Positions 49,141 to 52,190 of a stretch of 64,000 nucleotides of DNA are shown piece after piece (the stretch's first letter is position 1; each line of letters opens with the position of its first letter). The notes beneath the pieces were generated by a model. The model was not told the origin of the DNA, made no database searches, and saw nothing but the letters and a program-made list of their open reading frames with translations. The translations under genes were made by a program, and so were the position numbers. This stretch comes from Melioribacteraceae bacterium (GTDB lineage Bacteria > Bacteroidota > Ignavibacteria > Ignavibacteriales > Melioribacteraceae), in the NCBI GenBank assembly GCA_024103215.1, contig JAGFIY010000127.1, forward strand, positions 1 to 64,000, in the 5' to 3' direction.

Positions 49141-49155
49141 CACAAATTGGGAATT

Positions 49156-50355
49156 ATGGCTTCCGGTCCGAAATCATTTAATTTAAAAATTGTACTTCTG
49201 ATAATTGCATTTGCAATTGCTCTAGGAACATTATACTACACACAGAATATTGTTCAAAAACTTCAACTGCGTGAAAAAAACATTGTTGAACTTTATGCAA
49301 ATAGTCTCCAGTACCTCGCGACTTCAGACGAACAGAGCGAAGATTATACTTTTATTTTCGACGTAATTAGAAGAATTGATTTTCCTCTTATCTTAACTGA
49401 TCCAAATGATAAAGTAAACCTGAGCGGAATGGCGTTTGGAATACGTAACGTCGAATACGACTCAACCCTTACTCAAGAAGAACTGATATCATTTATAGAC
49501 GAAAAAATAGTTGAACTTAGTAAGGAACACTCGCCCATTCCAGTAACAATCGACGATACATTAGTTGTTCAAAAAATTTACTACGGAAATTCAGACCTTA
49601 TTAAACAGCTTATTTACTATCCCTATTTGCAGATATTATCAGCAATTATTTTTATCCTGATTAGTTATGTAAGTTTCAGTTACATGAAAAAAACGGAACA
49701 AAGCAATATTTGGGTTGGAATGGCTAAGGAAACAGCCCACCAACTAGGAACCCCCATTTCAAGTTTAATGGGTTGGAGTGAAATGCTTAAATTAAATTAC
49801 AATTACCCTGATAAAGTTTCCGACGTTGCAGATGAAATGGATAATGATTTGACTCGCTTGAATAAAATCGCAAAAAGATTTTCTAAAATAGGTTCAAATC
49901 CGGAATTAAAAGAAAACAACATTTACGAAATTATTAACGGTGTTGCCGATTATTTTAAACGCAGACTGCCGCAATTCGGTCATTTAGTTCAAATTTTGAT
50001 AACCGGTAATAAAAACATAGTATCAAAAGTTAATGCTGATCTTTTTGAATGGGTACTAGAGAACCTGATAAAAAATTCACTAGATGCAATAGAAAATAAA
50101 GAAGGAAAAATTGAAATAGATATTAGTGAACTTCCCAAAACAATTGAAATTTCAGTTACGGATAATGGCAAAGGCATAGATATCAAGCGAAGAAAAGATA
50201 TTTTCAGACCAGGTTACAGCACAAAAAAACGTGGATGGGGTTTGGGCTTGAGTCTTTCAAAGAGGATCATAAGCGACTATCACAAGGGTAAAATTTTCGT
50301 GAGCCGCTCCGAAATCGACAACGGAACAACAATTAAAATTATACTTCCAAAATAA
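49156..50355 (+). CDS. Membrane sensor histidine kinase
   Basis: This 399-residue kinase has two membrane helices (about 12-30 and 156-176) around a periplasmic domain of about 125 residues. It has no HAMP; the second helix leads into a DHp helix with KETAHQLGTPISSLMGW and phospho-acceptor His195. The ATPase has NLIKNSLDAIE (N-box), VTDNGKGID and GWGLGLSLSKRI. The HQLGTP form of the H-box is seen in a Bacteroidetes/Chlorobi kinase group. The ATG at 49156 (after GGGA) is preferred over an in-frame TTG at 49147. No response regulator is adjacent, so it is an orphan kinase. Confidence 0.92.
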   Translation: MASGPKSFNLKIVLLIIAFAIALGTLYYTQNIVQKLQLREKNIVELYANSLQYLATSDEQSEDYTFIFDVIRRIDFPLILTDPNDKVNLSGMAFGIRNVEYDSTLTQEELISFIDEKIVELSKEHSPIPVTIDDTLVVQKIYYGNSDLIKQLIYYPYLQILSAIIFILISYVSFSYMKKTEQSNIWVGMAKETAHQLGTPISSLMGWSEMLKLNYNYPDKVSDVADEMDNDLTRLNKIAKRFSKIGSNPELKENNIYEIINGVADYFKRRLPQFGHLVQILITGNKNIVSKVNADLFEWVLENLIKNSLDAIENKEGKIEIDISELPKTIEISVTDNGKGIDIKRRKDIFRPGYSTKKRGWGLGLSLSKRIISDYHKGKIFVSRSEIDNGTTIKIILPK

Positions 50356-50500
50356 TAACTTACTTAAACTAATAAGAACTTTAATTAGTGGATAATTGGA
50401 TAATAATTCTTATTCACGAGAATTAAGTAGTTTTCTTTTCTCAAATTTAGGTCATCATAATCCACAGTGTCCGATTCTGCAATATAATCAAACTCTAAAA

Positions 50501-50517
50501 TTGGCACGTAGATTGTT
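50501..50517 (+). promoter_or_regulatory. Sigma-54 (RpoN)-type promoter
   Basis: TTGGCACG-TAGA-TTGTT matches the sigma-54 consensus TTGGCACG-N4-TTGCW at every defined base except one (T for C at -12). GG (50503-50504) and GT (50515-50516) have the required 10-bp spacing. The predicted start is near 50528. It lies in an intergenic region with no protein gene downstream on this strand. Upstream, an AATAAGAA / TTCTTATT inverted pair (50371-50378, 50407-50414) could be an activator site. Confidence 0.6.
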
Positions 50518-50527
50518 ATATATTGTA

Positions 50528-50601
50528 AAGCAGAACGACCCTCCTTTAATTAGCAATCCAAGCCGTTGCGGAGTGCCCTCTTCCTCAACGGCTTTCTTCC
50601 T
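50528..50601 (+). ncRNA. Candidate sigma-54-dependent small RNA with anti-Shine-Dalgarno stretches
   Basis: Between the sigma-54-type promoter (start about 50528) and the terminator ending at about 50601 lies a 74-nt stretch that would form a compact RNA. Its 5' part is unstructured by eye and contains ACCCTCCTTT (50537-50546), complementary to Shine-Dalgarno sequences. Its 3' part is the terminator hairpin, whose loop holds a second pyrimidine run (TTCCT). This layout (single-strand C-rich seed plus terminator) is typical of sRNAs acting on mRNA translation starts. No known family was recognised. Boundaries are inferred from the promoter and hairpin only. Confidence 0.42.
50560..50600 (+). 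terminator. Terminator-like hairpin between kinase and amidohydrolase genes
   Basis: A perfect 9-bp stem AAGCCGTTG / CAACGGCTT (50560-50568, 50586-50594) has an inner GAG/CTC hairpin and is followed by a T-rich but interrupted tail (TTTCTTCCTTT). It lies 3' of the convergent minus gene as well. On that strand the tail is A-poor, so it mainly fits the plus strand. Confidence 0.7.
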
Positions 50602-50606
50602 TTAAA

Positions 50607-52190
50607 TCATTGTTTTGCGTAAACTAATTCACCGTTAAAATATGTCGATATAACTTCAATTGAAGAAATCTCATTTAATGGTATTTTAAATATATTTTCT
50701 GATAGGATAACGAAATCTGCAAGTTTACCCGGAGTGATGCTGCCTTTTATATTCTCCTCAAATGAAGCGAAAGCCGGAGAAATTGTATATGCATCGATTG
50801 CTTCCTTTACCGAGATACACTGCGAAGCAAGCCAATGTTTTTTGCCGACTCTGGTATTTCGATTTACTGCCGCATCAATACCTTTTATCACGGAAGGTTC
50901 AACCACCGTCCAATCACTTCCGAAAGCTAATTTGATTTGCGAATCAAGTAAAGTTCTTAATGAATAGGATTCATTAATCACGTCAGGAGAAAGTCGGGAG
51001 TCTATCTGATCAGCATCGGTTACAAGATGTAAAGGCTGCACGGATGCAATTATTTTCTCCTTTCGCACACGTTCAATATCTGATCTACGAATATGCTGTA
51101 AATGTTCGATTCTAAATCGTCTGTCCCTTATTCCGAATTTCTGATTAAGTGATTCACATAGAGAGATAACTTCGCTGTTTGCTCGATTTCCAATTGCATG
51201 AATCGCAAGTTGAATCCCTTTTTCATCGGCAAATTGGACTAACTCTTTAATATAACCGGTTTGAAAAATTTCAGTGGGAAGTCCGAAATTCCCGAGTTCG
51301 TTTAAGTACTCTTCAAAAAACCAAGCGGTAGACGAACCAAGAGATCCGTCCGAAAATGCTTTCACGGTTTTACAACGAAACAATTCGGGGTATTTAGATT
51401 CTACAAACAATTCAGAGTGAATTTCCATCTTTTGAATACTGGGGATTGAGTTAATTCGTAAATTTAGTTTTCCTTTTTCCGCTAGCGATTCATAAAAACT
51501 ATAATCACCTATATTTGAAATATCATGAACACTTGTTATTCCGTTTCTGTGAAGATACTGTACCGCTTTTTCAAAATCAGTTTCTTTACTGTTTTTAGAA
51601 TCTTGCTTAAAAATTTTCTTTACTAAATCCATTGCAGAATCTTTAAGAATTCCCGTTGGATTACCCTTATTATCCCTTTGAATAGACCCGCCGATCGGAT
51701 CAGTTGTATTTGAATCAATCCCTGCAGCAATTAAAGCTTCGCTGTTTACAAGTGCCATATGAATATCCATACGTGTGGCATAGAAAGGCACTTTGCCCGT
51801 TAAGTCATCAATCCATTCTTTTGTTGGAATACCATCTTGAAGAAATAAATTTTCGTCCCAGCCGAAACCGATGATTTGGTTTTTATTTTTATTTTCCTCT
51901 AAATATTTTATTACTTCGGCTCTAAACTTCGCTTTTGAATTTACTTTTGAGAGATCCAATTGAGTCAATGATTCAGCACCGTACATTAGATGTAGATGTG
52001 AGTCAGTAAATCCAGGAAGCATCAACTTTCCTTTGAGGTCAATAATTTCATCCGATGATTTTATTTCTTCCCTCAAATCGTCGCAGATTCCAACCGCCGA
52101 GATCTTTCTTCCATCAATTATAACTGCTTCTGCAAATGGAAGGTTTTTATCCGAGGTATATATAATTCCGTTAATGAAAGATTTTTTCAA
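50607..52190 (-). CDS. Amidohydrolase family protein (YtcJ-like)
   Basis: This 527-residue metal-dependent hydrolase of the amidohydrolase 3 group has the N-terminal metal motif MLPGFTDSHLHLMYG. Also present are IGFGWDENLF, RMDIHMALVNSEAL, TSVHDIS, KAFSDGSLGSSTAWF, LAIHAIGNRANSEVI, RIEHLQHI and LAFGSDWTVVEPS. The closing ITPGKLADFVILSENIF is characteristic. All expected His and Asp ligands are present. Family members act on amide or related bonds of small molecules; no substrate can be named. It has no signal peptide and no operon partner. Confidence 0.9.
   Translation of the reverse strand: MKKSFINGIIYTSDKNLPFAEAVIIDGRKISAVGICDDLREEIKSSDEIIDLKGKLMLPGFTDSHLHLMYGAESLTQLDLSKVNSKAKFRAEVIKYLEENKNKNQIIGFGWDENLFLQDGIPTKEWIDDLTGKVPFYATRMDIHMALVNSEALIAAGIDSNTTDPIGGSIQRDNKGNPTGILKDSAMDLVKKIFKQDSKNSKETDFEKAVQYLHRNGITSVHDISNIGDYSFYESLAEKGKLNLRINSIPSIQKMEIHSELFVESKYPELFRCKTVKAFSDGSLGSSTAWFFEEYLNELGNFGLPTEIFQTGYIKELVQFADEKGIQLAIHAIGNRANSEVISLCESLNQKFGIRDRRFRIEHLQHIRRSDIERVRKEKIIASVQPLHLVTDADQIDSRLSPDVINESYSLRTLLDSQIKLAFGSDWTVVEPSVIKGIDAAVNRNTRVGKKHWLASQCISVKEAIDAYTISPAFASFEENIKGSITPGKLADFVILSENIFKIPLNEISSIEVISTYFNGELVYAKQ

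Follow-up and report, generated by a model that had tools for sequence, protein, structure and literature searches.

A predicted small RNA family with C-rich motifs, mostly behind sigma-54-type promoters, in the order Ignavibacteriales

CsrB and RsmZ are protein-titrating RNAs whose loops carry GGA motifs, and the Qrr RNAs pair with the help of Hfq. Among RNAs with C-rich or anti-Shine-Dalgarno motifs, RsaE acts on ribosome-binding sites through its C-rich motifs (PMC6435200), and the alphaproteobacterial NfeR1/alpha-r14 "cuckoo" RNAs, which are Hfq independent and carry identical anti-Shine-Dalgarno motifs on varying stems, silence ntrB (PMC10746234). Here we describe a candidate small RNA (sRNA) gene in a 64,000-nucleotide stretch of DNA from a Melioribacteraceae bacterium (positions 1 to 64,000 of contig JAGFIY010000127.1, assembly GCA_024103215.1), hereafter the window. 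An earlier note on this DNA had proposed that a sigma-54-type promoter drives an orphan sRNA from a noncoding gap, and the elements on which it relied at 50501 to 50601, i.e., a promoter with GG-N10-G spacing, C-rich motifs, and a hairpin, are present as described. Comparison with related genomes leaves us in very little doubt that the predicted RNA belongs to a real, order-wide sRNA family, mostly under sigma-54 control. The label "orphan" is therefore misplaced, since the RNA has such a family and recurring neighborhoods.

Conservation across the order

A BLAST search with the intergenic gap (50356 to 50606) against 38 genomes, i.e., the source genome and relatives, yielded a single clearly significant match apart from the gap itself, in G010 (77% identity), where the promoter, the first C-rich motif (seed 1), and the hairpin are all present behind an orthologous kinase gene and the downstream gene is a different one. 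A search pattern combining the promoter and seed 1, TGGCAY-N5-TTG-N15-40-ACCCTCCTT, had matches in 12 of 164 genomes of the order, compared with a single match for the reversed pattern used as a control. Ten or eleven of the matches had all parts of the architecture, among them a GCCCTC-type loop for which the pattern did not ask; the first match, L011, lay in apparent coding sequence and was excluded from the seed alignment. Named records with the full pattern were mostly metagenome-assembled genomes of Ignavibacteriales, Melioribacteraceae, and Ignavibacteriaceae.

A first covariance model was built from nine sequences, one of them from the window, with the promoter left outside the model; it matched the window at 50536 to 50602 (E = 7e-13 against its own genome). 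In its 11-pair helix, eight pairs had changed on both sides, a count that no slid control and hardly any shuffle reached. Across the 164 genomes, the model was positive in 130 at E ≤ 1, covering 58 of 68 genera, and in at least 107 at E ≤ 1e-4. A second model, from 77 sequences, had double changes in 10 of the 11 pairs; across 76 distinct sequences, 98% of the helix cells were paired. This model also matched six genomes from another family of the same class. Within the sample of the phylum, nothing outside the class scored better than 4.6e-4, and candidate homologues in three genomes there (E from 5e-4 to 7e-3) were treated as noise. A match within the class (L141) was likewise rejected, being a plain terminator lacking the CCCTC motifs.

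In 50 non-redundant relatives, the columns of the loop motif GCCCTC and of the linear motif CCCTCC carried the information listed in Table 1, and stem positions mostly carried less yet remained paired. Because CCCTCC belonged to the seed pattern, the way in which the seed sequences were chosen accounts in part for its conservation among them, a caveat from which the loop and the stem are exempt. On average, the linear CCCUCC was predicted to be unpaired at 88% and the loop GCCCUC at 93%. The fold of the window RNA beat its shuffles (z = -2.5), and within the predicted RNAs we saw only scattered open reading frames of about 10 to 28 residues. Promoter, CCTCC, and stem, whose conservation in relatives the earlier note had put forward as a check, were all found conserved, the stem with covariation.

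Several lineages depart from this layout. In genus g19 (L088, L103, L084, L085, and L111), the loop hairpin occurs in tandem copies about 105 to 115 bp apart, and both the linear motif CCCTCC and the promoter of sigma-54 type are lost; G107 has seven model matches in all. Genus g7 (L052, L047, and L049) has an extra 5' hairpin upstream of the core with the same GCCCTC loop, plus linear copies, adding up to four CCCTC copies in L052; its promoter resembles the Bacteroidota housekeeping type. In the second family of the class, L125 to L128 have a longer leader with ACCCTTA repeats upstream of the core, and L130 to L132 are paralogues that carry CCTCCTCCTTAGACCTCC and lack a sigma-54 promoter. 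Since lineages change promoters, lose the linear CCCTCC, or multiply hairpins, the conserved unit, as read from the alignments, is the C-rich loop as the core of the predicted RNA, around which promoters and copies turn over. The column information gives the same picture.

The sigma-54-type promoter and its control

Taken by itself, the promoter match in the window is not significant: the pattern was found once, 0.45 matches were expected, and at least one occurred in 35 of 100 shuffles. What had been described as a rare consensus match is thus unremarkable alone, and it is conservation in relatives that lifts the locus far above chance. With at least 8 of 11 positions matching, the GG and the G required, and a distance of no more than 110 nt upstream, a sigma-54 promoter was predicted upstream of 66 of the 89 matches outside the promoter-selected seed, compared with 2.7% of shuffled upstream sequences, which supports the earlier proposal that such a promoter drives the RNA. 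After further loci had been added, the count stood at 92 of 120. The -12 element reads mostly TTGT or TTGA across relatives, and the TTGT form is also found in Salmonella pspA, TGGCACGCAAATTGTATT (PMC3844500). The predicted RNA start, near 50528 as previously placed, lies about 12 nt past the -12 element, in agreement with the sigma-54 spacing rule; between predicted start and core, relatives have leaders of 8 to 55 nt (median, 22.5). A check on rpoN, set beforehand, found the gene present in the source genome, as it is in 158 of the 164 genomes of the order, and the source genome encodes about 21 strong sigma-54 activator domains.

Two inverted repeats were enriched in 56 non-redundant upstream regions: TTCT-N8-(A/G)(G/A)AA in 14, against an expectation of 4.1 and clustered mostly around -85, -95, and -64, and GTAA-N3-TTAC in 9 (0.18 expected), for the most part 71 to 75 bp ahead of the TGGCA box, both being exploratory leads only since they were derived from the sequences used for counting. 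Taken together, these enhancer-like repeats are found some 64 to 97 bp before the promoter. Published enhancer distances are about 70 to 150 bp (PMC3844500). The GTAA-N3-TTAC palindrome, carried by L080, L091, L093, L094, L095, L100, L102, L134, and L142, is a candidate site for an enhancer-binding protein other than that of the window's group.

At the 3' end, where the earlier note placed a terminator ending near 50601, the hairpin covaries. A textbook tail is lacking: the hairpin is followed by TTCTTCCTTTAAA, the U/C tract is imperfect, and a simple terminator scan did not call the window hairpin.

Table 1. Elements of the predicted sRNA locus and its upstream neighbor in the window
Feature	Position	Strand	Basis
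Sigma-54 promoter, -24/-12 elements TGGCAC-N5-TTGT (TGGCACGTAGATTGT)	50502-50516	+	Exact pattern match, GG-N10-G spacing
Small RNA gene, predicted	50528..50602	+	Covariance model match and fold; both ends inferred
Unpaired C-rich seed 1, ACCCTCCTT	50538-50546	+	CCCTCC columns 1.4-2.0 bits; predicted unpaired
3' hairpin, presumed intrinsic terminator	50560-50594	+	Covarying pairs in relatives
C-rich seed 2, GCCCTC in apical loop	50575-50580	+	1.8-2.0 bits per column
Pyrimidine tail after hairpin, TTCTTCCTTTA	50595..50605	+	U/C-rich tail, then TTTAAA, common in relatives
Candidate enhancer (upstream activator) site, AATTCT-N8-AGAATT	50405..50424	+	TTCT begins 95 bp upstream of TGGCAC box
Orphan membrane sensor histidine kinase gene (context, outside the RNA)	49147..50355	+	HATPase_c 3.8e-20; HisKA weak

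Proposed action and competing explanations

We consider it fairly probable that the plus-strand locus is the gene of a trans-acting sRNA, switched by sigma-54, that pairs through its C-rich motifs with G-rich ribosome-binding regions. An enhancer-binding protein sitting about 70 to 100 bp upstream would, on sensing its signal, activate the sigma-54 polymerase. The resulting RNA of 75 to 90 nt would expose CCCUCC in its linear part and GCCCUC in the terminator loop, and these motifs would pair with GGAGGG/GAGGGC-like ribosome-binding regions in a subset of mRNAs and so block initiation. Both motifs are complementary to GGAGGG/GAGGGC, and we regard action by pairing with Shine-Dalgarno regions as moderately probable in its own right. 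Such pairing would work without Hfq, which was not found in the source genome (99.9% complete; best score, 11.4 bits against a cut-off of 27). Among sampled genes, about a fifth have an AGGA-type Shine-Dalgarno sequence and about 3% have AGGAGG; because only a minority have a strong one, the RNA could be selective. Two genes of the source genome, ftsZ-like and recA-like by sequence (L203 and L187), belong to the small number in which a strong AAGGAGG precedes the start codon. In a ranking of predicted duplexes, an exported protein came first (L195, -22.9 kcal/mol), which is a guess only.

Several observations weigh against this reading. The pattern AAGGAGG-N4-10-ATG is not in excess in the source genome (39 matches compared with 44 for the reversed control), and AAGGAGGGT-N3-9-ATG has no match there; across genomes the latter has 0 to 5 matches per genome, and inspection showed no recurrent target. 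Nor is the predicted sigma-54 control universal, as no such promoter was seen at 28 of the 120 matches. Several of the promoter-less copies show TTGACA or, read by eye, Bacteroidota-type TTTG/TAnnTTTG elements instead. Loss of rpoN was rejected as the cause, the gene being present in nearly all of those genomes of the order. Finally, the repeated CCCUC loops would lend themselves to protein binding as well.

This last point underlies the principal competing explanation, that the main role of the RNA is to bind and titrate a protein in the manner of CsrB/RsmZ, via its CCCUC motifs. The motif has been multiplied in the two GCCCUC hairpins and linear copies of genus g7, the tandem arrays of genus g19, and the several ACCCTTA/CCCTCC repeats of the second family, and decoys bound by proteins typically have near-identical loops on stems that vary. 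CsrA, however, the classic decoy target, was not found in the source genome and needs GGA, which is not a repeated motif on the plus strand, and the alpha-r14 RNAs, likewise built of multiplied, identical C-rich loops, act by pairing with mRNAs (PMC10746234). On balance we think titration unlikely to be the main function. A reading that spans the two modes, also doubtful in our estimate, is that in this order, where neither Hfq nor CsrA is recognized, a single C-rich motif, loop-multiplied in some genera, forms a global sigma-54 switch, acting either as a broad anti-Shine-Dalgarno repressor, made selective by the small share of genes with a strong Shine-Dalgarno sequence, or as a decoy for a novel C-rich-RNA-binding protein.

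Could the element be only a conserved terminator or 3' untranslated region of the kinase gene, or the leader of a downstream gene? In family f1, the kinase gene is mostly on the same strand, 80 to 320 nt upstream, and the gene on the other side often runs in the same direction as the RNA. Over all matches examined, the upstream neighbor is a homologous kinase gene in about 60 and a divergent gene reading as nadA in 25. Same-strand downstream genes read as dCMP deaminase or ferredoxin-type reductase, and those facing the RNA as aroB, amidohydrolase, and others, all names but the kinase being judged from the sequences with no search behind them. The downstream gene opposes the RNA at many loci, including the window, where an amidohydrolase gene occupies 50607 to 52190 on the minus strand. 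Moreover, a sigma-54 promoter separates the RNA from the upstream gene, and the loop sequence and linear CCCUCC are conserved, unlike in terminators. All this makes a mere untranslated region or leader quite improbable. Kept through neighbor changes and with its own promoter, the predicted RNA is best described from the comparative data as an independent gene, neither untranslated region nor leader. The kinase has no adjacent response regulator and is kept beside the RNA across family f1; the two may belong to one circuit.

A functional RNA read from the minus strand is more improbable still. GGA does recur in the reverse complement, in several motifs (for instance, AAGGAGGGT), and the near-palindromic hairpin gives weak reverse-strand model matches. 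Yet only the plus side has a sigma-54 promoter and a U-rich tail; in relatives, the sequence beyond the other end of the hairpin is rich in C and A, which would leave a minus-strand transcript without a T tract there; and the CsrA that a GGA-rich, CsrB-like RNA would call for is the protein that was not found. A chance promoter match next to a chance hairpin in an AT-rich gap, which the expected frequency of the promoter pattern in the window alone might suggest, has a practically negligible probability, being contradicted by the order-wide conservation, the covariation, and the independently recurring promoter.

Comparison with known systems

The proposal that the RNA belongs to no known family has held: at the gathering score, Rfam had no match for the window or for 20 homologous loci, and at E ≤ 10 the window gap gave no bacterial small RNA, only chance small nucleolar RNA matches. 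In the literature searched there was no description of this RNA and no published small RNA for Ignavibacteria. The family is thus new to Rfam and to that literature; in kind, it is ordinary. If our reading is true, an order known largely from metagenomes would have a regulatory RNA in its core genome, one linked to sigma-54 that apparently needs neither Hfq nor CsrA, and this RNA would be a clear test case for base-pairing RNAs without known chaperones where strong Shine-Dalgarno sequences are confined to a minority of genes. Repeated promoter replacement and loop-motif multiplication make its evolution traceable.

As stand-alone sRNA genes under sigma-54 and enhancer control, GlmY/GlmZ (PMC3844500) and Qrr (PMC3352281) resemble the new RNA in their regulation. 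They differ in that GlmY/GlmZ act through RapZ (PMC7073468) and Qrr are part of Vibrio quorum sensing, and neither has an Rfam match to the new RNA. CsrB/RsmZ share with it repeated identical loop motifs, in the new RNA in some lineages only, but the motif here is CCCUC and not GGA, and the source genome has no detected CsrA. RsaE/RoxS of Staphylococcus and Bacillus are alike in being short (about 100 nt) and in exposing C-rich motifs, which in their case bind ribosome-binding sites (PMC6435200, PMC5419742). Neither their lineage nor their sequence is related, the two stem-loops of RsaE are set apart by a long unpaired stretch, and there is no Rfam match here. The alpha-r14/NfeR1 RNAs, like the new RNA as predicted, keep one identical motif over varying stems and do without Hfq, and repeated motifs occur in some lineages of the new RNA as well. 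In alpha-r14, however, three hairpins each carry CCUCCUCCC, and NfeR1 has LsrB as its activator and NtrC as its repressor (PMC10746234), whereas the new RNA usually has one linear CCCUCC and one loop GCCCUC behind a predicted sigma-54 promoter, with one hairpin in the window and two only in genus g7. The RNA fits neither family, but its likely mode of action resembles that of RsaE/RoxS and alpha-r14.
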